Positions 8,127-27,272 of a stretch of DNA of 64,000 nucleotides are shown one piece after another (the first letter of the stretch is position 1; every line of letters begins with the position of its first letter). This DNA is from Acetohalobium arabaticum DSM 5501 (GTDB taxonomy: Bacteria; Bacillota; Halanaerobiia; Halobacteroidales; Acetohalobiaceae). Where the stretch lies: contig NC_014378.1 of assembly GCF_000144695.1 (NCBI RefSeq), forward strand, positions 62,001 to 126,000. Reading direction: 5' to 3'. The position numbers and the translations under genes were made by a program. Under the pieces are notes generated by a model. It was not told the origin of the DNA, made no database searches, and was given only the letters and a program-made list of their open reading frames with translations.

Positions 8127-8891
8127 ATGCGTGGAGATAAGTATATTGCCTCTCTATTGATTATAGTTCTGTTGTTGCCTAGTTTGATGGTCTTATTCTG
8201 GACAGGTCCGGTGTATGCTGTTTCAGGATTGGATAATCTGGAATCAAATAGCAGCTTTTTATCAGTATTAAAAGGATTGGTAGCTCTTTTTATCTTGAAT
8301 AAGATAATCGGTAATGGAGATTCTGCTTCAGCAGAGCCGCCTCAAGAAGATGATCCAACTCCTATTGATAATGGGGATAATAATTCAGAGGATAATGTTG
8401 TTATAGAAGAGCCTGGGGATAATGAAGATAGTAGCTATTCAGATCAGAAAGATAATAGTTCTACAGATGAAACTGCTACTGATTGGACTGAAATGGAAGT
8501 AACAAGTATGACTTCTGCTGAAGCAGAGATGTTACAGCTTTTGAATCAGGAGCGGACTCAGCGCGGTTTAGAACCGCTACAGGTGGACTTAAGATTAGTC
8601 CAGGTAGCGCGGGCTAAAAGCCAGAATATGATTGATGAGGATTACTTTGCCCATCAGTCGCCAACATTAGGATCACCTTTTGATATGATGCAGGCCTTGA
8701 ATATCAGTTATGATTTTGCTGGTGAGAATATTGCTGGTGCTGGAACAGTAGCGCGAGCTCATAAACACTTAATGGAAAGTCCTGGACATAGAGAGAATAT
8801 TCTGCGGCCGCGATTTACACATGTCGGGATCGGTATTATTGAAGGTGGGCCTTACGGGATGATGTTTTCTCAAGAGTTTATTGATAAATAA
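8127..8891 (+). CDS. Secreted/anchored CAP (SCP-like) domain protein
   Basis: A 254-residue exported protein of the YkwD type. An N-terminal hydrophobic signal or anchor (IASLLIIVLLLPSLMVLFW) is followed by an acidic Asn/Asp/Ser-rich linker (about 65-125) and a C-terminal CAP domain starting at LLNQERTQRGLEPLQVD. The CAP signatures are present: the His in YFAHQSP, GENIAGA, and HLMESPGHRENILRPRF. In sporulating Firmicutes such proteins occur on the cell or spore surface; their activity is mostly unknown. A GTG at 8112 precedes the ribosome-binding site GAGGAG, so ATG 8127 is the start. A terminator follows. Confidence 0.88.
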   Translation: MRGDKYIASLLIIVLLLPSLMVLFWTGPVYAVSGLDNLESNSSFLSVLKGLVALFILNKIIGNGDSASAEPPQEDDPTPIDNGDNNSEDNVVIEEPGDNEDSSYSDQKDNSSTDETATDWTEMEVTSMTSAEAEMLQLLNQERTQRGLEPLQVDLRLVQVARAKSQNMIDEDYFAHQSPTLGSPFDMMQALNISYDFAGENIAGAGTVARAHKHLMESPGHRENILRPRFTHVGIGIIEGGPYGMMFSQEFIDK

Positions 8892-8917
8892 AGTTGAATA
8901 CTTGTAATTTTATTTTT

Positions 8918-8956
8918 AAGCGAGATGGTAGAGTAATTAGCCGTCTCGCTTTTTTA
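8918..8956 (+). terminator. Terminator after the CAP gene
   Basis: Arms AAGCGAGATGG and CCGTCTCGCTT (one G-T pair) enclose an AT-rich loop and are followed by TTTTTATTTT. Confidence 0.88.
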
Positions 8957-9057
8957 TTTTGTTTGAATTTAGATGCACGAAATAAAGCTTAGTACATAAA
9001 TATAATTTAAATTCATAGATGCTGGATTAGGTTTAATTTTGGTAAAGTGCAGCTTTA

Positions 9058-9614
9058 TTGATATATTGTGTCACCTGCAATATTTTCGTATATACCTCTT
9101 ATTTGTAATTGCCTAGTATAATCAATATGAGTTCATTCATGATATTGCAGGAATAGTCAATATATATCCGCCGCTTGTCGTTCGCTCAACATCCTGTTTC
9201 GCTCACTGTCAAAAACTGGTCCTCCACCGTCCGTGGTTCCGGACCAGTTTTAAGAGTCGCTATGGACACATATTGACTATTGATAATAGAATATATTGAA
9301 CTACAAATAGTCAACATTTCTCTGGAGCGACTCTTAAAAAGAACTTGGAGCCATGGAGGTTGTAGAATAATTTCTTTTTGTTCTTAGTCCTTTAGATTTG
9401 CTCAATACTACCATATTTAGCTCTAAAGGTTACTCCCATAGCCAGTCATTGGTTTGTATGCTGGCTATGGCGGAAAGTTCTTTTTTGAGAGTGAGTGAGA
9501 CAGGACGTCGAGCGAATGGCAAGCGTAAGAGATTTGTTGACTATAATCTGCAATATCTCAAACGAACGGTAAACGTTTGCAAGATATCAACTCTAAACTG
9601 CAACATTATATCAA
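9058..9614 (+). mobile_element. Nested inverted-repeat element, copy 1 (557 bp)
   Basis: Ends are TTGATATATTGTG on the left and a near-complement (ACATTATATCAA) on the right. Inside, left and right arms are imperfect inverted repeats of each other: ATTGCAGGAATAGTCAA and the CGCTTGTCGTTCGCTC region pair with TTGACTATAATCTGCAAT and GAGCGAATGGCAAGCG. Inner hairpins include AAACTGGTCC/GGACCAGTTT, AAGAGTCGCT/AGCGACTCTT and CCATAGCCAG/CTGGCTATGG. About 195 bp at the left and 125 bp at the right are nearly identical to copy 2 (9 or fewer visible differences). No plausible transposase is encoded: the open frame at 9398-9673 only follows the repeat. It is best described as a MITE-like or otherwise non-autonomous element. 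The right end lies 18 bp before the promoter of the next gene. Confidence 0.75.
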
Positions 9615-9707: not shown

Positions 9708-10799
9708 ATGTCAAAATTTAATTTACAAGAAAAAAATAACAGCAATGTGAATGGTAATGACTTTGCAGTAGAAGTACCTTTTTGTTGCGTTCAGGTTGTT
9801 CCAGGAAATCTGGAAGTGGTAGAAGATAGACTTGAAGCTGAGGATCTTAAAATGACCTTTACTCCTAAGTTAGAATGCTGTATCAAAGAAGAAGATTTAT
9901 CTTGTATTGCAGATAATGTATCATGTTCCATTGATGGAGAGGTATTAAGACTAGTTGGCTGTATTGAATATGCTATATCAACTATAAATGGTACTCCTGA
10001 TCCAGTTAGGGGGGACTTTTCTACCGAAGCTCCTCAACAGAATTCTGCTGATGTTAGCTGTAAAAGCACTGTGTGTGTAAATGAGATTATCTGTTGTGGT
10101 CAAGATTTAGAGTGTCCGGATGATTTAGATCTCAATGAGATAACTGTTAACTTTGAAGATGCTAAAGTTAAAGACTGTCCTAAGTGGGCTGATGAACCTG
10201 ATAAGAAGATTATTAAGTTTACAGGGAAATTTAGACTTCCAACATTACCAACCTGTCCTGATGAGAATGGAAATGGTAATGGCGATGGAAATGGCAACGG
10301 AAATGGCAATGGAAATGATAATGGTGATAATGGAGATGAAGAAGTATGTGGCTGTCAGGTAACTGGTGACTTAAATACTGGTGGAAATCCAGATGAAAGA
10401 GTTGACTTAAACTTACAGGTCTGTACAGGTTGTACTCCAGAAAATAGTTTAGTAAGTTATAATAATACGTTAGAAGACAACGATATTCAATTAGATCTAT
10501 CACCGGATGATGAAGAACCTGAAGGAATTGATTTAGTAACTTGTGAAGAAATTGCAGAGATTGAAGGTGGATTAAGGGCAACTATTGAAGGCCAAGCATC
10601 GGTCACAGTTGGTGAGGATTCGTTTGCTGCTTGTGACTTCACTATAGTAGTTACAGATACTCCCCCTCCTACTTCAGACACAATAGAAGAAGTGGAGATA
10701 ATCTGTGATGATCAATCAGTGCATACTGTTACTGAACCAATTGAAGGTGCTCAGGCAATTAATATTCAAGATATCTGTCCACTTCCACCCCAACAATAG
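9708..10799 (+). CDS. Cys-rich spore-surface candidate with Asn-Gly linker
   Basis: A 363-residue protein of no family I can name. Residues about 18-185 form a domain shared with the next gene: VEVPFCCVQVVPGNLEV, KLECCIKEE, CKSTVCVNEIICC and KVKDCPKWADEPDKKIIKFTGKF, rich in Cys-Cys pairs. A Gly/Asn/Asp repeat linker (DENGNGNGDGNGNG, about 184-210) leads to a unique C-terminal half with several Cys and a TPPP segment. There is no signal peptide. Cys pairs, low complexity, a sigma-K-like promoter and SPOCS neighbours point to a mother-cell-made, disulfide-cross-linked coat, exosporium or appendage protein; this is inference. The ribosome-binding site AAAGGAGGTGA is 7 bp before the ATG. Confidence 0.7.
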   Translation: MSKFNLQEKNNSNVNGNDFAVEVPFCCVQVVPGNLEVVEDRLEAEDLKMTFTPKLECCIKEEDLSCIADNVSCSIDGEVLRLVGCIEYAISTINGTPDPVRGDFSTEAPQQNSADVSCKSTVCVNEIICCGQDLECPDDLDLNEITVNFEDAKVKDCPKWADEPDKKIIKFTGKFRLPTLPTCPDENGNGNGDGNGNGNGNGNDNGDNGDEEVCGCQVTGDLNTGGNPDERVDLNLQVCTGCTPENSLVSYNNTLEDNDIQLDLSPDDEEPEGIDLVTCEEIAEIEGGLRATIEGQASVTVGEDSFAACDFTIVVTDTPPPTSDTIEEVEIICDDQSVHTVTEPIEGAQAINIQDICPLPPQQ

Positions 10800-10932: not shown

Positions 10933-11778
10933 GTGGATTTTGCAATGACCGCTGATAATGTACTGGAGTATTTTAGAGCAGAAGATGATTCAGAAGCATC
11001 AACAGAGGAAGAAGTAGAAATTACAGTTTTCAGCGCAGAAGATAATAGTGATGATTCACTTGGTGATTTTAATCTGGCCGCTGAAGAGATAGGAGAACAA
11101 GTAGAAGATGATGAAACTGAGATTGAAGCTGAAGAGGTAGAGGAGCAAGTAGAGAATAGTAGTCAACAAGATAAAAATAAGAAAGGAGGTGAAAATATGG
11201 AAGAACAAGAAGTTAATTTACAGCATGGAAGTGATGATTTTGCAGCAGAAGTACCTTTCTGCTGTGTTCAGGTCGTTCCAGGAAATCTTGAAGTGATAGA
11301 AGATAGACTTGAAGCTGAGGATCTTAAAATGACCTTTACTCCTAAGTTAGAATGCTGCATCAAAGAAGAAATGCTAGAGTGTACTGCAAATGGTGCAAAC
11401 TGTCAGATTGATGGAAAAGTAGTAAGATTGGTCGGCTGTATTGAATATGCCATATCGACTATAAACGATATTCCTGATCCAATTAGGGGTGAATTTTCTA
11501 CCGAAGCTCCTCAACAGAATTCCGCTGATGTTAGCTGTAAAAGCACTGTATGTGTGAATGAGATTATCTGTTGTTGCGAAAGAGATGAGTCAACTCTAAT
11601 AGATACAGATTTATGTGATGATTTAGATAGTTTATTAGACAATATAGAAGTTAAATTTAAAGCTGCTAAAGTTAAAGACTGTCCTAAATGGGCTGATGAA
11701 CCTGATAAGAAAATTATTAAGTTTACAGGGAAATTTAAGCTTCCAAAGTTGAATAATCTTCCTGCTAGTAATTCTTAA
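10933..11778 (+). CDS. Cys-rich spore-surface candidate, paralogue; likely two translation starts
   Basis: From GTG 10933 (AAAGGAGGGG 10 bp upstream) the protein has 281 residues: an acidic, Glu/Asp-rich 88-residue leader, then the same Cys-rich domain as the gene at 9708 (VPFCCVQVVPGNLEV, KLECCIKEE, CKSTVCVNEIICCC, KVKDCPKWADEPDKKIIKFTGKF), but no Asn-Gly linker or C-terminal half. Inside the frame, at 11182-11196, lies a perfect AAAGGAGGTGAAAAT followed by ATG 11197, the same ribosome-binding site used by the paralogue. A second, 193-residue product starting at Met89 is therefore very likely and may be the main one. Nucleotide identity with the paralogue is high in blocks, indicating recent duplication or gene conversion. 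Role in the spore surface is inferred. Confidence 0.7.
   Translation: MDFAMTADNVLEYFRAEDDSEASTEEEVEITVFSAEDNSDDSLGDFNLAAEEIGEQVEDDETEIEAEEVEEQVENSSQQDKNKKGGENMEEQEVNLQHGSDDFAAEVPFCCVQVVPGNLEVIEDRLEAEDLKMTFTPKLECCIKEEMLECTANGANCQIDGKVVRLVGCIEYAISTINDIPDPIRGEFSTEAPQQNSADVSCKSTVCVNEIICCCERDESTLIDTDLCDDLDSLLDNIEVKFKAAKVKDCPKWADEPDKKIIKFTGKFKLPKLNNLPASNS
11182..11199 (+). promoter_or_regulatory. Internal Shine-Dalgarno and start codon
   Basis: AAAGGAGGTGAAAATATG lies in frame inside the gene at 10933-11778 and would start a 193-residue form. The same bases encode KGGENM in the long form. Confidence 0.75.
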
Positions 11779-12033: not shown

Positions 12034-12684
12034 ATGAAGACTTATCGATTAGAAGAAGAACAGGTCTACAGTACTCAGCAAAGAGAAGTCAGCAGGCCCC
12101 AAGTTTATAGTACGTATTTAGATCGGTGTGGAAATAGACAGAATAGAGAATCTAAGCCGTCTAAACAGAGTCCAATTAATAGATTAGTTTATAAGAAACA
12201 GAATTTAATTAGAAATGGAGATTTTTCACATTGGAAGAATCAGGATCAACCAAAGTTCTGGCAGGGTAAAAACATAACTCAGACATCTACTTCTAAAACT
12301 GGTGCTAAAGCTGTACAGTTAAATCAGATTACAGATGGAGAAAGTAAAAATGGATCTCAGCTGTGGCAGAAAGGTGAATGCTGCAGTAATATCAAGGTTA
12401 ATCTACAGTTTTCGATTGCTACATTAATAATTGACAGTAGTAAACCGCTGCCTTGTAATCCAGAGATTACAGTAGAGCTTAACTGGTTAGATAGTAAAGG
12501 GGATAAGCTGGATACAGGATTGGAATTTATAATTCCGGCTGATAGTATACCGGCTGCCCAGTGGACCTTCTTCAGTAGAGTATCCAGTGCGGCTCCACAG
12601 GGTACTGAAGGTTTTTTATTATTATTTGCTGTAGATGCGGGAACGCCTGTAGCCTTGGATAATCTTAATTTGATTACATTATAA
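12034..12684 (+). CDS. Putative carbohydrate-binding (jelly-roll) spore-surface protein
   Basis: A 216-residue protein. After a polar 60-residue N-terminus the sequence LIRNGDFSHWKNQDQPKFW begins what looks like a galactose-binding-like beta-sandwich of the CBM4 type (N-G-D-F-S-x-W opening, ... closing with VALDNLNLITL, the usual LDNV-like last strand). No signal peptide, consistent with assembly from the mother-cell side. It is probably co-transcribed with the SPOCS gene 35 bp downstream. A role in binding glycan on the spore surface is an inference from fold and neighbours. The ribosome-binding site is ATGGGGTGG, somewhat weaker than its neighbours. Confidence 0.6.
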   Translation: MKTYRLEEEQVYSTQQREVSRPQVYSTYLDRCGNRQNRESKPSKQSPINRLVYKKQNLIRNGDFSHWKNQDQPKFWQGKNITQTSTSKTGAKAVQLNQITDGESKNGSQLWQKGECCSNIKVNLQFSIATLIIDSSKPLPCNPEITVELNWLDSKGDKLDTGLEFIIPADSIPAAQWTFFSRVSSAAPQGTEGFLLLFAVDAGTPVALDNLNLITL

Positions 12685-12719: not shown

Positions 12720-14024
12720 GTGTCAAATTTTGAACAGCAGGTTAATCTTAAGCGATTAGAATTGGATCGAACTGTTAATAAGATTAAGGACATCAAAGCT
12801 GAGGTAGAGGCTGTAGAATCAAAGGTTAGAGAAGGGAAGATAATCTTTAGCGGTGTAGTTGCAGAGGATATTATCTATGTTGGGCAGGAAGGTATTATCT
12901 ATCATCAGTTTGAGGAACTGGATTTTAGTATCTGTTTGCCAGTAGAAAAAGAAAGTGAGGATCAAGAAGTGGAGCTTACTCCCTGGATTGAATATCTTGA
13001 TTTTCAACTTGCGGATGAGGGCAAGCATCTAGAGCAGAAGATAATGTTGAAAGTACATACTCTGTTAATGAAGGAATCTCAACTAAAGGTAAAACCTGGA
13101 GCAGCAGATACTTATCGGGTAGCTGTTATAGTTAACGAGGTTGAAAAAGAGCAGATAATTGAGGATAAATTTAGTTTTAGATCAGAAATGAACCGGCTTA
13201 AGCAAGTTGAAGAAGCAACAGCTGAGGTAAAGAATTTAGAGTCTAAGCTTGTCAGTGGGCAGGCAATAATTCAGGGTAAGTTACGACAACAGTTCTTTTT
13301 CTGTGATGAACAGGATATCAGCCGCCAGGAGGAGCGGGAGTCTACCTTTGATGTTTCTGTAGATATTCCTGATGTAAATTCTGATCTACAGCTAGAGGTT
13401 GAACCCCTAATAGATTCACTTGACTGGCAAGTAATTGGTCCTGAAACTATTTCAACTCGGATAGTATTGAAACTCCAGTTGAGAATAATTGATTTTAGAG
13501 AGATGGGTTTAGCTTTAAATCCTACTGGTCCGACAATGGTATTGGATGAAGCTGTTTTGAGCAATCAGAAACAGACTATAGAGGTTAATACTTTTGAATT
13601 AGAATCATTTGCTTCTAATATTAGAAATATAGATGTAGAGTTAACAGACTTAGAGCTGGGAATGATTTCTGATTATATTATAGTCGAGGGCCAGCTTGAG
13701 TATGATATATATTATTTAGCTAACCTCCAAACTGAGCCCAATGTAGAATGCTATCAACAGGAGGCTGTACCATTTTCTACTCTTATAAAAACCTGTGGAA
13801 TCGAAACAGGAATGGAAGTGGTGATTAAAGAGGCAACAGAGGTTGAAGAGATTGAATTGCTTAATAATAAGACACTTAAGCAGGAGACGCTTATAGATTT
13901 AGAAGTTTCAGTTTTTAAAAGAGAGCAGGTTAATGTAACTGTTGATGAAACTGGAAGATTGATTACTGGTCAAGTGGTAATTGATGAAGGAATTGAGGAA
14001 TTTATAATCGATATTTCTACTTAA
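12720..14024 (+). CDS. SPOCS (DUF3794) repeat protein, putative spore-coat component
   Basis: A 434-residue protein with three repeats of the SPOCS type, at about 20-140, 155-275 and 290-425. Each shows an opening VKNLESKLVSGQAIIQGKL-like strand pair, a central Y/F-x-(D/E) turn and a closing KLQLRI-like strand. The family (named for SipL, SpoVID and coat proteins) acts in anchoring and assembling the spore coat on the forespore surface. There is no LysM domain. Start GTG 12720 has AGGAGGGG 9 bp upstream. It is 35 bp behind the putative carbohydrate-binding gene, so the two form an operon. No clear sigma-K box was seen before this pair. Confidence 0.75.
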   Translation: MSNFEQQVNLKRLELDRTVNKIKDIKAEVEAVESKVREGKIIFSGVVAEDIIYVGQEGIIYHQFEELDFSICLPVEKESEDQEVELTPWIEYLDFQLADEGKHLEQKIMLKVHTLLMKESQLKVKPGAADTYRVAVIVNEVEKEQIIEDKFSFRSEMNRLKQVEEATAEVKNLESKLVSGQAIIQGKLRQQFFFCDEQDISRQEERESTFDVSVDIPDVNSDLQLEVEPLIDSLDWQVIGPETISTRIVLKLQLRIIDFREMGLALNPTGPTMVLDEAVLSNQKQTIEVNTFELESFASNIRNIDVELTDLELGMISDYIIVEGQLEYDIYYLANLQTEPNVECYQQEAVPFSTLIKTCGIETGMEVVIKEATEVEEIELLNNKTLKQETLIDLEVSVFKREQVNVTVDETGRLITGQVVIDEGIEEFIIDIST

Positions 14025-15822: not shown

Positions 15823-15849
15823 ACTTTTTACAATAATGAACATATAATA
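15823..15849 (+). promoter_or_regulatory. Sigma-K-like promoter of the small membrane protein gene
   Basis: AC at 15823-15824, 16 bp, CATATAATA at 15841-15849, fitting AC-N16/17-CATAnnnTA. Confidence 0.6.
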
Positions 15850-15885: not shown

Positions 15886-16101
15886 ATGATTGGAGTACTG
15901 GTAGTTATTGCTGTAGTAGTGTTAGTAAATATTCTGTTAACTGCAAGTTATATCTACTTATTTATTGACTATTTTAATCTATTTAAAGAAGATACAAGAA
16001 GCTTTATTATCAACTATAATAGGTCTTTTGAACAAGAATCTGTAGATGATCAGAATCTAAATCACTGTGAGCAGGAGTATATTGAAACCTTTGCTGATTA
16101 G
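15886..16101 (+). CDS. Small single-pass membrane protein, unknown
   Basis: A 71-residue protein with an N-terminal membrane helix (about residues 2-32, IGVLVVIAVVVLVNILLTASYIYLFI) and a polar C-terminus. Translation starts at ATG 15886, 5 bp after GGAGGAGG; an upstream in-frame TTG at 15868 precedes that site and is not used. The family is not recognised. A sigma-K-like promoter and its position inside the spore-surface locus suggest expression in the mother cell. A terminator follows. Confidence 0.7.
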   Translation: MIGVLVVIAVVVLVNILLTASYIYLFIDYFNLFKEDTRSFIINYNRSFEQESVDDQNLNHCEQEYIETFAD

Positions 16102-16120: not shown

Positions 16121-16155
16121 AACCGGGATAAAGATTTTATCTCGGTTATTTTTTT
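16121..16155 (+). terminator. Terminator after the small membrane protein gene
   Basis: AACCGGGATAAA pairs with TTTATCTCGGTT around GAT and is followed by ATTTTTTT. Confidence 0.9.
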
Positions 16156-16157
16156 GC

Positions 16158-16185
16158 ACATTTCGCTTTTGGCCGGCATATAATA
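16158..16185 (+). promoter_or_regulatory. Sigma-K-like promoter of the SPOCS-gvpF/L operon
   Basis: AC at 16158-16159, 17 bp, CATATAATA at 16177-16185, a full match to AC-N17-CATAnnnTA, 37 bp before the GTG start. It is the best example of the set. Confidence 0.7.
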
Positions 16186-16221
16186 TTAAAGAGAAGAGCT
16201 TTATCTGTGAGGTGAGGTAGA

Positions 16222-17505
16222 GTGGTTGATTTAACTGGAATTGAATTGGTAGAGGTTCCAGTATTAGTTGAAGAAGGTAATGCTCAGGAGATGTTAGTTA
16301 CTGAGTTTGAATTAGTGGAATCAGCTAAACAAGTAAAGAGTGTTGATTCTGTAATTAAAAACTTAAACTGCGAAATAATAGAGGATAGAGTGATTGTAGA
16401 GGGGAAGATACATAAACAGATCCTTTATATTGCTGAAGAGGATTTGGTTCGTTACCAGAAAGAAGAATTTGAATTCAGTACTTTACTTAGTCTGCCTGGA
16501 GTTAAGCCGAGAATGGATGTTAGGATTAATGCTGTAATTAAAGGGGATAATACTGAATTATTAGAAGAGGGCAGTCTGATTAAGCAGAAGACATTATTGG
16601 ATATTCATGTTTTGGTAGAAAAGAGAGAAAGATTATTTGTAGAATTAGGCTCTAAGGAGCTAGTGGTTGTGGATAGAATTGTTGGTGAGAATAATAATCA
16701 GACTATAATAGAGGGGTTATTAGAATTGGAGATTCCTGCTTTTAAAATAATGGATATTGAAGTCCAATTGGAGGACATCTCTATAAAAATTTTTACTGAT
16801 AAAGTCATTGTAGAAGGAAATATAAAAGAAGAAATTTACTTTATAGATCAAAAGAGAGTAGAATGTTATTGTAAAAAGAAATTATCATTCATTCAATTTA
16901 TTGATCTGGTAGGGGTCAAACCAGGGATGAATATTAATCTTGATTCTGAAATCAGAGATATCCAGTATAGATTAAGTGGTGATGGGGTAGAGCTATCACA
17001 GAGGGTAATGATTAATTCTATAGCCAAAGCAACAGATAGAATAGAGGCAAATCTTAAGGTTGATTCTGAAGGAAAAGAGGTGCGGCTGTCTAAGCTAATT
17101 AATAAAACAGAGGAGCAGATTTTAGAAGAATTTCTTATTTCTTTGGATACTCCAGCAGTTAAGATTAAGAATGTTGATATTGAGATGGCTGATATAGAAT
17201 CAGAATTGATGACAGATAGAGTTATTCTGACCGGAAGATTAAAACAGAATATTTGCTTTATTGGAGAGAATAATATTGAGCGCCATCAGCAGAAGATAAC
17301 TTCTATTGATCTATTTTTAGATTTACCTGGAGTTTCACCTATAGATACAGCTGTTGATGTAGAATCAGAGATTATGTTTGTTAAATCGGACTTAGCTTCA
17401 GCTGGAGAGAGGCTAAAAGAGAAAGCAGTTCTCAAATTTTCTATTAAAGCTTTTCAAGATCCCCCTGTTACAGAAGAGATAGCTGTAGTATCAGTAGAAG
17501 ATTAG
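16222..17505 (+). CDS. SPOCS (DUF3794) repeat protein, operon partner of GvpF/L
   Basis: A 427-residue protein with three SPOCS repeats (about 25-140, 160-275 and 305-420). Repeated features are VKSVDSVIKNLNCEIIEDRV / MDIEVQLEDISIKIFTDKV / IKNVDIEMADIESELMTDRV, each followed by VEGxIKxxIYFI, a basic turn, and SLPGVKP-like FxxFIDLPGV. It is related to the protein at 12720 but clearly diverged. The GTG start has GAGGTGAGG upstream. It is 46 bp before the GvpF/L-like gene on the same strand, without a terminator between them, so both should come from the sigma-K-like promoter at 16158. Coat or gas-vesicle anchoring is inferred. Confidence 0.75.
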   Translation: MVDLTGIELVEVPVLVEEGNAQEMLVTEFELVESAKQVKSVDSVIKNLNCEIIEDRVIVEGKIHKQILYIAEEDLVRYQKEEFEFSTLLSLPGVKPRMDVRINAVIKGDNTELLEEGSLIKQKTLLDIHVLVEKRERLFVELGSKELVVVDRIVGENNNQTIIEGLLELEIPAFKIMDIEVQLEDISIKIFTDKVIVEGNIKEEIYFIDQKRVECYCKKKLSFIQFIDLVGVKPGMNINLDSEIRDIQYRLSGDGVELSQRVMINSIAKATDRIEANLKVDSEGKEVRLSKLINKTEEQILEEFLISLDTPAVKIKNVDIEMADIESELMTDRVILTGRLKQNICFIGENNIERHQQKITSIDLFLDLPGVSPIDTAVDVESEIMFVKSDLASAGERLKEKAVLKFSIKAFQDPPVTEEIAVVSVED

Positions 17506-17551
17506 CTGGTGTTAGAAGGTTGATTATTTAAAAATAGGGAGGAAGCTAGCA

Positions 17552-18349
17552 GTGGAAAAAGGTTTTTATCTGTATTGTGTTTTAAACTCTACAGAAGAGT
17601 TAGATATTAATATATTAGGTATAGATAATAAACATGAACCATATATTATTTCTTGTCAGGAAGTAGGAATTTTAGTAAGTGAGGTCATGCTTTCTGAATT
17701 TGGCCAGCAAGAATTGGCTGAAAAGGTACAGGACCTGGCCTGGCTGCAGAGAAAAGCTAAGCGGCATGAGCAGGTTATAGAAGAAGTTATGAGTAAGACA
17801 TCAGTAATTCCGCTTACCTTTGGAGTTATCTTTAAGAAGGAGATTAGGCTCAAAGAAGCCATTTCTCAATCATTACCTGAAATTAAAGAAACCTTTGAAG
17901 TAATAAATGGTTGTGAGGAATGGGGTTTAAAGCTTTATTGTGACTTTCTGCAGCTTAGAGATTCTATGTCAAAGATCAGTCCTGAAGTAAAGGAGATAGA
18001 GAGCAGACTGGAAAAGAGTCAGGGCGCAAGTATGGAATTTTTAGAACAGAGGTTAGAGCAGGAACTGGATAACAAAGTAAAGAAAGAGGCCTTTAGAATA
18101 GCAGATGAGATATATGAAGAATTATCAACGATAGCAGTTCAGGATCAGCTAAATAAAATAGAAGATCTAGAGATTGATGGTTTTTCAAAGCCTATGCTGC
18201 TTAACTCTGTTTATCTTATAGGTAAAGATAGGTCGTCTGATTTATTGATAAAATTAAAGGAGCTGGAGGTTAATTATTCTGATTTAGGATTTTATTTTTA
18301 TTATTCAGGTCCTTGGCCCCCTTATAATTTTTCTTATTTAGAATTATAG
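17552..18349 (+). CDS. Gas vesicle protein GvpF/GvpL homologue
   Basis: A 265-residue member of the GvpL/GvpF family, which in gas-vesicle producers is a minor or assembly protein that contacts the main shell protein GvpA. Family marks are YLYCVL at the N-terminus, HEQVIEEVMSKTSVIPLTFG (about 71-90), EEWGLKLYCD (about 126-135), a charged helical middle, MLLNSVYLIG, and the near-invariant C-terminal GPWPPYNFSYLEL. Length is normal. No GvpA, GvpN or other gas-vesicle gene is in the window; the gene instead follows a SPOCS coat-type gene in one operon with a mother-cell-type promoter. Start GTG 17552, with GGGAGGAAG 7 bp upstream. Its function on spores is inferred. Confidence 0.93.
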   Translation: MEKGFYLYCVLNSTEELDINILGIDNKHEPYIISCQEVGILVSEVMLSEFGQQELAEKVQDLAWLQRKAKRHEQVIEEVMSKTSVIPLTFGVIFKKEIRLKEAISQSLPEIKETFEVINGCEEWGLKLYCDFLQLRDSMSKISPEVKEIESRLEKSQGASMEFLEQRLEQELDNKVKKEAFRIADEIYEELSTIAVQDQLNKIEDLEIDGFSKPMLLNSVYLIGKDRSSDLLIKLKELEVNYSDLGFYFYYSGPWPPYNFSYLEL

Positions 18350-18400: not shown

Positions 18401-18814
18401 TTAATTGAGATTGAATCTTTCTGTAGCTAACTTTACTGCATCTGGATTATAGAGAAGGAATAATAATTTCTCTTTATAAAAGTAATTAGTTTTAATCTTA
18501 AAGATATGGATTAGCCTATTATCCTTAGAGCCGATCATAGTTACTTTATAATTTCGATATTTAATTTCGTCAACTTGGCCTCTAAGGATTATAATTAAAA
18601 GTTCATCTTCAGCTAAATTATCGGTTAGTTTAGGGAGCTGATAGGCAGCAGTTATTTCTTCAGCTTCAGTTAAGTTAGAGAAGATATGGATTTTTACTGC
18701 TGAATCTTTGTTTAGCAGCTCATGGTTTTTAATTAATTCTGCATCATATAGATCAATGGGAATGTATTCTACTGCTGGATAGGGAAAAATTTCATCCGGA
18801 TAACTAAAAGACAT
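18401..18814 (-). CDS. Hypothetical protein in the spore-surface locus
   Basis: A 137-residue soluble protein with no domain I recognise; it is a mixed alpha/beta sequence without signal peptide, Cys or repeats (MSFSYPDEIFPYPAVEYIPI opening). A strong ribosome-binding site (AAGGAGG) is 6 bp before the ATG, which supports it as a real gene. Its start faces the start of the SipL-like gene, the two being divergent, and both have a sigma-K-like promoter in the space between. A role in spore-surface assembly is suggested only by context. Confidence 0.65.
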   Translation of the reverse strand: MSFSYPDEIFPYPAVEYIPIDLYDAELIKNHELLNKDSAVKIHIFSNLTEAEEITAAYQLPKLTDNLAEDELLIIILRGQVDEIKYRNYKVTMIGSKDNRLIHIFKIKTNYFYKEKLLFLLYNPDAVKLATERFNLN

Positions 18815-18920: not shown

Positions 18921-18947
18921 ACATTTCCATTTATGGTGCATATAGTA
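18921..18947 (+). promoter_or_regulatory. Sigma-K-like promoter of the SipL-like gene
   Basis: AC at 18921-18922, 16 bp, CATATAGTA at 18939-18947, 47 bp before the ATG. A TATAAT overlaps the end of the box but has no good SigA -35. Confidence 0.65.
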
Positions 18948-18993: not shown

Positions 18994-20598
18994 ATGGCAG
19001 TACAGTGTAGAGATCGAACTGTTAGAGTAGAATATGTAGTTGATGAAGATACAGTTAGAGAATCTGTCAGTGGAGAATTGACAGTTCCAGATGAAAAGCC
19101 TGATATCGAACGGGTATTAGAGGTTACCACAGAAATTAGTACAGAGACGGCTACAGTTGAAGAGGGCGGAGTTGATTTAGATATTGAATTAGAAGTAGGG
19201 GTGTTATATGTAGCAGATGTCCCTGAAGATGATCCACAACAGCCGGTACATTTTTTTGAAGGGCCAGTTAGTGTTAGTAACTTTGTTGAGTTACCAAATG
19301 CAGAACCAGGAATGCATGTTATAACTGATGTCCAGATTATTAGAACTAGTAGTGACTTTATCGATGAGAGAACTATTGAGGTGACGGCTACATTACGTAA
19401 GTTTGCTAAAGTAGTAGAGTTTAGACAGATGACAATTGTTACTGACATTACTGGTTTAGAGCATGGCCTTATAGATAAGGAATTATTGAGATTGAATGAT
19501 GTAATTGATGAAAATGTAATTACTGAAGTTGTAGCTGGGGAGATAGATGTTCCTGAGGAGAAGCCTCCAATTGAAAGAATTCTTAGAGTTCAGGGAGATC
19601 TTATTGGTGAGCCCGAAACTACAGTTGTGGATGGAGCAGTTATAGTTGAAGGAACTATTGAAGGAGGAGTTGTTTATGTAGCAGCTACAGATGAAGGGGA
19701 TCAGCCAGTTCACTTTTTTGAAGGAACCTTTACCTTTTCCTATGCTGTAGATGTTCCTGAAGTTTCAGAAGCTGATGATTTATCTGTTTTCACAGATGTA
19801 ACTGTAAGACAGATAACTGCTAGTTTTGTAGATGATGGAACAACTGGATTTGACATAGTATTAGAGATCTTTACTAAAGTAACAGAACCAATCCAGATAG
19901 AAGCAGTTGTGGATGTTGATAGTGATAAGATAGAAGTTGAAAAAGAGCTATTGAGAGTAGAAGAAGTAATCGGGGAGAATACTATTACTGAAACTATTAC
20001 AGGTAATGTTAATGTACCTGCTGGTAAACCTGATGTAGAAAGAATTCTGGCTGGAACCAATGCTACAGTTTTAAATCCAACGGCTACAGTCCAGGATGGT
20101 GGAGTCTTAATTGATGGAGAGATTGAAGGAGCAGTAATCTATGTAGCAGATGTGCCCGAAGATGAACTACAGCAGCCGGTGCATTTTGTAGAAAACTTCT
20201 TTAACTTCAGTAACTTTGTAGATGTTAGTGGGGCGGAGGAAGGAATGACAGCCTATGCTAATGTATCAGTAGTTAATGTTAGATATAGCCTATTAAATCA
20301 AAGAACAGTTGAATTGACTACTACCTTACAGAAGTTTGCTAAGGTTGTACAGTTTAGACAGTTAGAGATTGTAACTGACTGTATTGCAGTGTCTCCAATT
20401 GTTGATGAGCCCTGTGAGGATCGGCCTTCATATGTAGTTTATGTTGTTCAGCCGGGAGATACTCTCTATAAGATTGCTCGCAGATATGGTACTACTATTG
20501 ATGCTATTGTAGAAGCTAATGATATTCCAGATCCTGACCGGATTGATGTTGGGCAGAAGCTGTGTATTCCTAAGAAGATAATTGATCCTAAAGGATAA
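18994..20598 (+). CDS. SipL-like spore-coat morphogenesis protein (three SPOCS domains + LysM)
   Basis: A 534-residue protein with three SPOCS repeats (about 1-155, 160-315, 320-470) and a C-terminal LysM domain (YVVQPGDTLYKIARRYGTTIDAIVEANDI). Each repeat contains VPxxKPxIERIL and GxVxYVAxxPExxxQPVHFFE. This architecture is that of Clostridioides SipL, the functional counterpart of SpoVID, which binds the coat-basement ATPase SpoIVA and ties the coat to the forespore; LysM could bind peptidoglycan or SpoIVA. The repeats are more alike than in SipL, suggesting internal duplication. A second SipL elsewhere in the genome cannot be excluded. ATG start with AAGGAGGAGTG upstream; terminator directly after. 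Confidence 0.85.
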   Translation: MAVQCRDRTVRVEYVVDEDTVRESVSGELTVPDEKPDIERVLEVTTEISTETATVEEGGVDLDIELEVGVLYVADVPEDDPQQPVHFFEGPVSVSNFVELPNAEPGMHVITDVQIIRTSSDFIDERTIEVTATLRKFAKVVEFRQMTIVTDITGLEHGLIDKELLRLNDVIDENVITEVVAGEIDVPEEKPPIERILRVQGDLIGEPETTVVDGAVIVEGTIEGGVVYVAATDEGDQPVHFFEGTFTFSYAVDVPEVSEADDLSVFTDVTVRQITASFVDDGTTGFDIVLEIFTKVTEPIQIEAVVDVDSDKIEVEKELLRVEEVIGENTITETITGNVNVPAGKPDVERILAGTNATVLNPTATVQDGGVLIDGEIEGAVIYVADVPEDELQQPVHFVENFFNFSNFVDVSGAEEGMTAYANVSVVNVRYSLLNQRTVELTTTLQKFAKVVQFRQLEIVTDCIAVSPIVDEPCEDRPSYVVYVVQPGDTLYKIARRYGTTIDAIVEANDIPDPDRIDVGQKLCIPKKIIDPKG

Positions 20599-22487: not shown

Positions 22488-23003
22488 TTATTGCGTGATC
22501 TTCAATTTCTGTCCCGGATGGATTAAATCTGGATTTTTTAACTGGTTTATCTTTACTAATTCTGCTACAGAAGTATTAAATTTTTGTGCTATTTTATATA
22601 ATGTATCTCCCGGCTGGACTTTATAGATAGTATAATCTGGATTAGGATTGGAGTTTAGATTGTTATAGATATGAATAGGAGTTCCTACTTCTACTTGTTT
22701 ATATATATCTTTTACATCAGTATTATACATTCGAACACAGCCATTGGAGACAGCTTGCCCGATAAGCCAGGGCTGATTAGTGCCATGGATTCCATGAGTC
22801 TGCCAGGTGAATTGAATCCAACGTGAACCTAATGCACCACCGGGATTTTTTCGTTTAAGCAATACTTCAAAATTACCAGTCGGAGTAGGTGTTGAAGCTT
22901 TGCCAATTGCTACTGGATAATGACCAAGCAGCTCTGAATTTTGATAGAGTTCTAGATAGCGCTGTTCTAAATTGATTACAATTTTCTTATTAATATTATT
23001 CAC
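22488..23003 (-). CDS. L,D-transpeptidase (YkuD domain) with C-terminal LysM
   Basis: A 171-residue protein. The YkuD catalytic domain (about 6-115) has the signature HGTNQPWLIG...SNGCVRMYN with the active Cys, an enzyme type that forms 3-3 cross-links in peptidoglycan. A LysM domain follows (YKVQPGDTLYKIAQKFNTSVAELVKINQL). The order is reversed relative to B. subtilis YkuD, where LysM is N-terminal. There is no signal peptide or membrane helix, as for YkuD, which is a sporulation protein made in the mother cell. A sigma-K-like promoter lies upstream (23062-23088), supporting a spore-cortex or coat role. Start ATG has GGGGAGGTGA upstream. Confidence 0.88.
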   Translation of the reverse strand: MNNINKKIVINLEQRYLELYQNSELLGHYPVAIGKASTPTPTGNFEVLLKRKNPGGALGSRWIQFTWQTHGIHGTNQPWLIGQAVSNGCVRMYNTDVKDIYKQVEVGTPIHIYNNLNSNPNPDYTIYKVQPGDTLYKIAQKFNTSVAELVKINQLKNPDLIHPGQKLKITQ

Positions 23004-23061: not shown

Positions 23062-23088
23062 TATTATATGGTTTAAATTTAAAATTGT
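23062..23088 (-). promoter_or_regulatory. Sigma-K-like promoter of the L,D-transpeptidase gene
   Basis: Minus strand: AC (23087-23088), 16 bp, CATATAATA (23062-23070), about 60 bp before the start. Confidence 0.6.
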
Positions 23089-25356: not shown

Positions 25357-26184
25357 ATGAAGTTAAGAAGAAGCGAACGGATTGTAGCAATTACTAAGAT
25401 TTTAATCGATAAACCTTATAGATTATTCTCCTTAAATCACTTTACTCAAAAGTTTGATGCTGCTAAATCTACTATTAGTGAGGATCTGTCTATCATTAAG
25501 CGTGTTCTTGCTGCTGAAGATATGGGACAGATTGAAACTATCTCGGGGGCTGCTGGGGGAGTTAGATTTATTCCTAAAAAAACTGCTGGAGATATTGAAG
25601 AGGTTGTAACTGATTTATGTCAGGATTTGTCTGATTCTGACCGGATTCTCCCGGGCGGTTTTTTATATATTACTGATCTCATATTTTCACCAGAAACCGT
25701 TATGGAGATTGGAAAGATATTTGCCACTCAATTTGCTGAACTGGATGCTGATTATGTAATTACTATTGAGACTAAAGGAATCCCAATAGCTTTGGCTACA
25801 GCTCGGGCAATGAATCTACCAGTAATTAGTATTCGTAAGGATAACCGTGTTACAGAAGGATCAGTAGTCAGTATTAATTATGTAACCGGTTCATCAAAGA
25901 AGATCGAAACTATGTCTTTATCCCGCAGAGCCTTATCTGAAGAATCGAAAGTAGTAATTGTTGATGACTTTATGAAGGCTGGTGGAACTGCTAAAGGAAT
26001 GCTGGATTTATTGAGTGAATTTAAAGCAGAAGTTTTAGATATTGGTGTCTTAATGGAGACAGCCCAGCCGGAAAAAAAATTAGTTTCTAACTATACGTCA
26101 TTAATTGTAGTAGACAAAGTAGATGAAGAGAAGCAGCAAGTGGTAGTTAGACCTAGTAATTCCATTTTGGGTAAATCAGATTAG
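25357..26184 (+). CDS. purR: Purine operon repressor PurR (Bacillus type)
   Basis: A 275-residue transcription factor with an N-terminal winged helix (SERIVAITKILIDKPYRLFSLNHF...AAKSTISEDLSIIKR) and a C-terminal phosphoribosyltransferase-fold domain that senses PRPP (VVIVDDFMKAGGTAKGM, about 206-222). It represses purine genes in Firmicutes and should not be confused with the LacI-type PurR. AAGGAG lies 17 bp before the ATG, rather far; GTG 25349 is out of frame. The gene converges with the ATPase gene, their ends overlapping by 4 bp. Confidence 0.95.
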   Translation: MKLRRSERIVAITKILIDKPYRLFSLNHFTQKFDAAKSTISEDLSIIKRVLAAEDMGQIETISGAAGGVRFIPKKTAGDIEEVVTDLCQDLSDSDRILPGGFLYITDLIFSPETVMEIGKIFATQFAELDADYVITIETKGIPIALATARAMNLPVISIRKDNRVTEGSVVSINYVTGSSKKIETMSLSRRALSEESKVVIVDDFMKAGGTAKGMLDLLSEFKAEVLDIGVLMETAQPEKKLVSNYTSLIVVDKVDEEKQQVVVRPSNSILGKSD

Positions 26185-27272
26185 GTTGTTGGTAACAGTT
26201 CGGTTATTATTTCTTTTCTGAGATTATCAATAGCGGTAAAATTCATAGCCTCGATATAATATTCTTCTAAATCATCATGGAGACTTTTGGCTTCAGCAAT
26301 TTTAGTTATTGCTTTGGAGATTAATTCTTCATAATTCTCTTTTGCTTCCAGGCAATTAGATTCAAATTCATCAATTATCTGTTGGTCAATACAATCTAGC
26401 ATATTGATTACTTCGTCATTTTTGCGGTTAGGATTTAATTCATGGGGCGGAGTTCCATTGATTAAAGCTGTATTTAGTTCAGGAATAATAACTGTATCTA
26501 TTTTTTCGGGATCGAAAGCACAGTGATAAAAATAAACTTCATAGCCCTGCATTAAAGCTTCTTTGGCTATCTTTTCTGTTAATTTAGCCTTGCCGCTGCC
26601 TGGCTTTCCCTTTAAAATATACCGTTTTTCTATATCTTTGGTGATATTATTTAGATAATTTACTGGCCCTTGAGGCGTTAAAGCACTAGCAAAGAGGCGT
26701 CTTTCTTCTCCTTTTTTATCAGCAATTTCCGTAGAATTAAAGATTTCAGCCTTCAGATTTTTGATTTTATATTCAATTTTCTGGGGGTCCAGTGCTTCTA
26801 TGTAATTTGATTTCCATTTTTCATAAAATGATTTGGCTATAGCCAAATCGTCATAGGCCAGCTGGAATAAATTCCAGATCTGATTATTAAGCTGTTTTAT
26901 TTCAGACTTATGTTCTTTTAACAGTTTACGGTCCCAGTAGCGGCCTAAATTTATAATTTCATCTACTGCACCTGGATTTTCAGGATCTACTAGATGGGGA
27001 GCAGTTCCGTCTAGAAAGGCTACCTGTAGATCTTTAATTACTATCCCATCTAAAGAATTATTGTCTGATGAACACCAGTGGAATTCAATATCATAGCCTT
27101 CTTCTATCATTCTTTCACCAATCTTCTTCATAAAAGTGGACTTACCTGTTCCTGGGCCGCCTTTGATTATAAATACCTGTTCAGCTTCATATGGTAAATA
27201 GTCATAAAATGAATAGAAGCCCTGTGCTGTGTTGCCGCCGGGAAAGAAATTAATTATACTGCCTTCGTTCAT
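26181..27272 (-). CDS. Tandem P-loop ATPase of unknown function (PRK06851-like)
   Basis: A 363-residue protein made of two similar halves. The first has Walker A GGPGTGKSTFMKKIGERM (about 38-55) and EFHWCSSDNNSLDGIVIKDL; the second has GKPGSGKAKLTEKIAKEALM (about 222-241) and YFYHCAFDPEKIDTVIIPEL. In the second P-loop the Ser/Thr after GK is replaced (GKAK), so that site may not hydrolyse ATP. The family is widespread in sporulating Firmicutes but has no assigned role that I know. A sigma-K-like promoter just upstream suggests mother-cell expression. The ATG has GAGGAGGTAATAAT upstream. Confidence 0.8.
   Translation of the reverse strand: MNEGSIINFFPGGNTAQGFYSFYDYLPYEAEQVFIIKGGPGTGKSTFMKKIGERMIEEGYDIEFHWCSSDNNSLDGIVIKDLQVAFLDGTAPHLVDPENPGAVDEIINLGRYWDRKLLKEHKSEIKQLNNQIWNLFQLAYDDLAIAKSFYEKWKSNYIEALDPQKIEYKIKNLKAEIFNSTEIADKKGEERRLFASALTPQGPVNYLNNITKDIEKRYILKGKPGSGKAKLTEKIAKEALMQGYEVYFYHCAFDPEKIDTVIIPELNTALINGTPPHELNPNRKNDEVINMLDCIDQQIIDEFESNCLEAKENYEELISKAITKIAEAKSLHDDLEEYYIEAMNFTAIDNLRKEIITELLPTT

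Follow-up and report, generated by a model that had tools for sequence, protein, structure and literature searches.

A GvpL-type gas-vesicle protein gene paired with a SPOCS gene in Acetohalobium arabaticum, and its possible recruitment to the mother-cell stage of sporulation

The present analysis, all of which was carried out in silico, concerns a pair of adjacent genes, one for a protein with SPOCS (DUF3794/SipL) domains and one for a gas-vesicle protein of the GvpF/L family, in a 64,000-nucleotide stretch of the Acetohalobium arabaticum genome. This stretch, referred to here as the window, comprises bases 62001-126000 of a genome (G000) that is a single complete contig of 2,469,596 base pairs (bp). 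The family to which the organism belongs is sampled by five genomes (G000 itself and G001, G002, G003 and G004), and the class by 59. The locus contains the following features, in window coordinates:

15823-15849, + strand: sigma-K-type promoter of the small membrane protein gene, a strict AC-N16-CATATAATA site 36 bp before the ATG
15886-16101, + strand: small protein of 71 amino acids, first of a conserved trio, with an N-terminal hydrophobic (membrane) segment recognized by eye and a conserved acidic tail
16121-16155, + strand: intrinsic terminator separating the small gene from the SPOCS promoter, a hairpin of -14.7 kcal/mol (z-score -5.7) followed by a T tract
16158-16185, + strand: sigma-K-type promoter of the SPOCS-GvpF/L operon, a strict AC-N17-CATATAATA site (AC at 16158, CATATAATA at 16177-16185) 37 bp before the SPOCS GTG
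16222-17505, + strand: triple-SPOCS protein of 427 amino acids (PF12673, 100 bits over three stretches, above the Pfam cut-off)
17552-18349, + strand: GvpF/L of the GvpL type, 265 amino acids (PF06386, 198 bits), the sole GvpF/L of a genome in which neither GvpA nor GvpG was found

The SPOCS gene, which starts with GTG, ends 46 bp upstream of the GvpF/L gene, and a search of the gap between them in the window revealed no terminator-like fold. The promoter of the pair lies directly behind the strong terminator hairpin that follows the small gene. Homologues of the 71-amino acid membrane protein are found at the same site in all five genomes of the family; this protein belongs to the SPOCS-GvpF/L set, which is thus larger than first noted. 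In G002 (L019, 5326-6963) the small membrane protein and the SPOCS protein form one open frame, which is either a natural fusion or the product of a lost stop codon. The SPOCS protein shares its domains with SipL and other DUF3794 coat proteins. The SipL of Clostridioides difficile combines SPOCS with LysM, whereas the protein described here has three SPOCS domains, lacks LysM and is paired with GvpF/L.

The identity of the second protein of the pair is clear from several directions. The PF06386 (GvpL_GvpF) match scores 198 bits against a cut-off of 23.6 (E value 3.4e-58) and covers residues 4-261, so that the protein is a full-length GvpF/L; it contains both the GPWPPYNF end and the HEQVIEE...IPLTFG core, and keeps the positions that are conserved across the family (Y6, Y8, H72, P87, F90, E123, K127 and GPWP). 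An AlphaFold model built with 32 sequences, which replaced a discarded model from five sequences with a predicted local distance difference test score (pLDDT) of 56, has a pLDDT of 93.4; in structural comparison it strongly matches the two solved GvpF structures (6l5d, Z 21.6; 4qsg, Z 21.1) and nothing else, the next, unrelated match having a Z of 7.5. As modelled, then, the GvpF fold is kept, in common with the GvpF and GvpL proteins of gas-vesicle clusters (PF06386; PDB 4QSG and 6L5D), with Z of 21-22 across 240 residues and a shared conserved core. The GvpL type is nearest among these by tree and by profile score. The score of 71 bits against the GvpL equivalog NF045778 is below its cut-off of 200, which is not decisive since the GvpL-type proteins of relatives' clusters, at 81-95 bits, also fall below it. 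Unlike the GvpF and GvpL proteins of gas-vesicle clusters, this one occurs without GvpA, GvpG or a second F/L protein, is encoded singly within a coat operon headed by a sigma-K-type promoter, and forms a clade of its own on a long stem.

The promoter of the pair was evaluated with a strict sigma-K-type motif, AC-N16/17-CATANNNTA, which separates sigma-K from sigma-E only incompletely; looser matching at gvpA genes was too noisy and was not used. There are seven strict sites in the window, and six of these lie 19-59 bp before the start of a gene on the same strand, where the null expectation is 0.26 and none of 200 simulations reached this count. The six genes, all in or beside the island described below, encode a CryBP1 protein, the small membrane protein, the SPOCS protein, a SPOCS-LysM protein, an L,D-transpeptidase-LysM protein and a P-loop ATPase. 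At the CATANNNTA boxes that precede genes in 12 loci of the order, the AC lies at a spacing of 16 or 17 bases in 41 of 53 cases (30 and 11, respectively), no other spacing occurring more than nine times. It is because of this spacing preference that the sigma-K type is preferred over an ordinary sigma-A promoter, which was rejected: a TATAAT is present, but at a poor 19-bp spacing from TTGCAC. The promoter thus fits the mother-cell (sigma-K) type as far as its motif can tell, with sigma-E also possible. A sigma-K gene is present in G000 above the curated cut-off, and the promoter site of the small protein recurs at the same position, with at most one mismatch, in the other four genomes of the family. 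The original prediction, which had been made from the window alone and had placed a 265-amino acid GvpF/L with the conserved end and core 46 bp behind a triple-SPOCS gene and a mother-cell-type AC-N17-CATATAATA promoter, is borne out on each of these points.

The GvpF/L of the window is the only one detected by profile search of G000, and a search of the same genome for GvpA (PF00741) gave no match. This search is sensitive, as it finds GvpA in 15 of the 16 other genomes that carry GvpF/L. GvpG (PF05120) was likewise not matched in G000, G002, G003 or G004, while G001 and G009 do match; gvpN, gvpK and gvpO do not appear among the annotated neighbours in the window, G000 as a whole not having been searched for these three. 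G001 and G009, each with a gvp cluster, are the only genomes of the order that have GvpA. G001 is the sole family member with such a cluster and has lost its SPOCS gene; G009 has a cluster and lacks the coat-type GvpF/L; and G000, G002, G003 and G004 have the SPOCS-GvpF/L pair without GvpA. A second, independent orphan was seen in L062 (G055; 8476-9258, - strand), a lone GvpF/L of the other type with unrelated neighbours in a 1.8-Mb genome without GvpA.

Each of the five family genomes carries the coat-type GvpF/L, intact at identities down to 47%, and the 54 other genomes of the class lack it. In the family tree it is monophyletic (support 100/100), within the GvpL-type half. The approximately unbiased test allows a shared origin with the GvpL-type paralogue that G001 and G009 carry (p-AU 0.196) but rejects a recent origin shared with the F-type paralogues of these two genomes (p-AU 5e-6). 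No relatives were found in viral contigs. Between G000 and G001 the nonsynonymous divergence (dN) is 0.155 and the synonymous divergence (dS) 0.99, and by this ratio (dN/dS ~0.16) the gene is under purifying selection. Four of the five genomes (G000, G002, G003 and G004) carry the trio in the same order, small protein, SPOCS, GvpF/L. The adjacency, whose lack of conservation in relatives would have counted against the original prediction, thus recurs in G002, G003 and G004, where the adjoining SPOCS orthologues are 42% identical and a further SPOCS gene (weak in G003) follows, placing GvpF/L between two SPOCS genes. In G001 the adjacency is broken by deletion of the SPOCS gene, whose promoter and last codons remain as a scar before GvpF/L.

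By gene content, the surroundings of the pair are a coat-gene island, which includes these further features:

12720-14024, + strand: second triple-SPOCS protein, 434 amino acids (PF12673, 85.6 bits)
18401-18814, - strand: conserved protein of 137 amino acids with no assigned family, a synteny marker of the island present in 11 of 13 genomes of the order
18921-18947, + strand: sigma-K-type promoter of the SPOCS-LysM gene, AC-N16-CATATAGTA, 47 bp upstream
18994-20598, + strand: SPOCS-LysM protein, 534 amino acids (PF12673, 161.6 bits; LysM, 68 bits; a weak SafA/ExsA domain match below the cut-off)
22488-23003, - strand: L,D-transpeptidase-LysM protein (YkuD and LysM domains), with a sigma-K-type promoter at 23062-23088 (- strand), 59 bp upstream

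The SPOCS-LysM protein is likely, from its domains, to serve in coat or cortex attachment. Its promoter recurs almost unchanged in the remaining four family genomes and in similar form in two genomes of the order's other family, and the island around it is syntenic over most of the order. Two CryBP1-family (PF07029) proteins lie in the island at 9708-10799 and 10933-11778 and have relatives in G001, G009 and G008; a sigma-K-type promoter precedes the first of them by 48 bp. A 216-amino acid protein beside the second SPOCS gene (12034-12684) has a sub-threshold match to the NTTRR-F1 domain, and the gene for a protein with two P-loop ATPase halves (nSTAND-like; 26181-27272, - strand) is preceded at 37 bp by a sigma-K-type promoter, which is also conserved in G001.

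Taken at the level of genes, these observations make it reasonably probable that, in the family's ancestor, the mother-cell stage of sporulation took over an assembly protein of the GvpL type from the gas-vesicle system, and that this protein today functions in the absence of gas vesicles. The three genes of the trio would be transcribed in the mother cell by sigma-K (or sigma-E) at a late stage of sporulation. By analogy with the docking of SipL on SpoIVA, which is established for C. difficile, the SPOCS protein would attach to the surface of the forespore, and GvpF/L would act as an assembly chaperone or minor structural partner of the SPOCS coat layer. Relatives of GvpF/L bind the aggregation-prone GvpA. 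Reuse in the coat, which the original prediction had offered as one of two possibilities, is favoured because the clade and gene order are conserved across the family, the promoter is of the sigma-K type, the neighbours are coat genes, the gene is under purifying selection and its presence is independent of GvpA; the coat location itself is a prediction. In the genome-wide check for gvpA that had also been proposed, no gvpA was found in G000; the pair is conserved in relatives.

Several points weigh against this account. Its least certain step is what GvpF/L would do for the SPOCS proteins, as their chaperone or structural partner, a role drawn from the protein family. No sporulation of A. arabaticum has been seen (PMC3035264), although the sporulation genes that it is listed as lacking are only a few (PMC3533761); the family member Fuchsiella alkaliacetigena is described as a spore former. 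In G002-G004 the SPOCS and GvpF/L genes are separated by a strong hairpin, with a T tract in G002 and G003, and because of it simple co-transcription is not assured in these genomes, in which no separate GvpF/L promoter was found. Finally, G001 has GvpF/L without this SPOCS protein, so that GvpF/L cannot depend on that SPOCS protein alone.

The last observation also bears on the possibility that GvpF/L is a mother-cell protein outside the coat, such as a soluble chaperone or a scaffold at some other site of the sporulating cell. It is the promoter and the neighbourhood, and not the protein itself, that point to the coat; but in four genomes GvpF/L has a SPOCS gene as neighbour on one side or on both, and we regard such a role as unlikely, if worth keeping in mind. 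The other suggestion of the original prediction, that the operon ties gas vesicles to the spore, would accord with the spore-attached gas vesicles known in the order (PMC4187190) and with the position of the G009 gvp cluster inside the coat island. It did not survive the gene distribution, on which it was rejected: G000 and its three pair-bearing relatives lack GvpA and GvpG, G001 has gas-vesicle genes but lacks this SPOCS gene, G009 has them but lacks the coat-type GvpF/L, and no sampled genome combines the intact pair with GvpA, a separation which is suggestive given that it involves five genomes only. Because the only gvp-bearing family member has lost the SPOCS gene, the pair is unlikely to be a tether for present-day gas vesicles, and we give the idea very little credence.

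The intact fold and core motif of GvpF/L would also be expected if a very divergent, unrecognized GvpA formed the shell of spore gas vesicles and GvpF/L did its classical job. GvpA, however, is small and highly conserved and was detected by the same search in nearly all GvpF/L genomes, GvpG is absent as well, and the genome is complete, all of which makes this improbable. It is more improbable still that the gene is a relic of a lost gvp cluster retained by chance. It does lie near the site where G009 holds a complete cluster, and it shares the GvpL type with one paralogue there, a common origin with which stands unrejected; but it is conserved intact under selective constraint, and in G001 it is still behind the sporulation promoter after the adjoining deletion. 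A functionless relic was thus rejected as the present state of the gene, although it may describe its origin.

Recruitment into the coat programme can be set within a broader association, and the wider intuition that gas vesicles are molecularly tied to sporulation has gained independent support. The complete gvp cluster of G009 lies within the same coat-gene island, and strict sigma-K-type sites are found 51-53 bp upstream of gvpA in both G009 and G001. Overall, strict sites precede five of 61 gvpA/J genes (null expectation 0.17, a count never reached in 1000 simulations), compared with none of the 268 other genes of clusters outside G001 and G009. Such sites were noted upstream of the gvpA/J genes at L068 12411, L071 8203 and L072 11580 (G015 and G183), in two unrelated families of the phylum. 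The link between gas vesicles and sporulation in this group therefore looks real at the sequence level, and the gas vesicles of these organisms would be made in the mother cell. More tentatively, gas vesicles in several anaerobic Bacillota might be a mother-cell sporulation product under sigma-K, mostly lost in the family of A. arabaticum, where one GvpL-type protein was left in the coat programme; the coat-type GvpF/L is perhaps the remainder of spore gas vesicles in an ancestor.

Gas vesicles have been described on the mature spores of Sporohalobacter lortetii and Orenia sivashensis, members of the same order as A. arabaticum, and in S. lortetii they are made only together with spores (PMC4187190). 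These two organisms are known in this respect from microscopy, the papers found naming no genes, whereas A. arabaticum lacks a gas-vesicle shell gene. A literature search, which most subscription journals lay outside, found no description of a link of gas vesicles or GvpL with the spore coat or mother cell. The same promoter type at the gvpA genes of relatives would explain the old reports of spores with attached gas vesicles, for which, decades after they were made, there is now a concrete candidate in gvpA genes behind mother-cell-type promoters and a coat-programme GvpF/L that outlived the vesicles. To our knowledge, no protein of gas-vesicle assembly has previously been found to function where gas vesicles are lacking; this GvpF/L would be the first, and would then allow the activity of GvpF/L to be studied in isolation.
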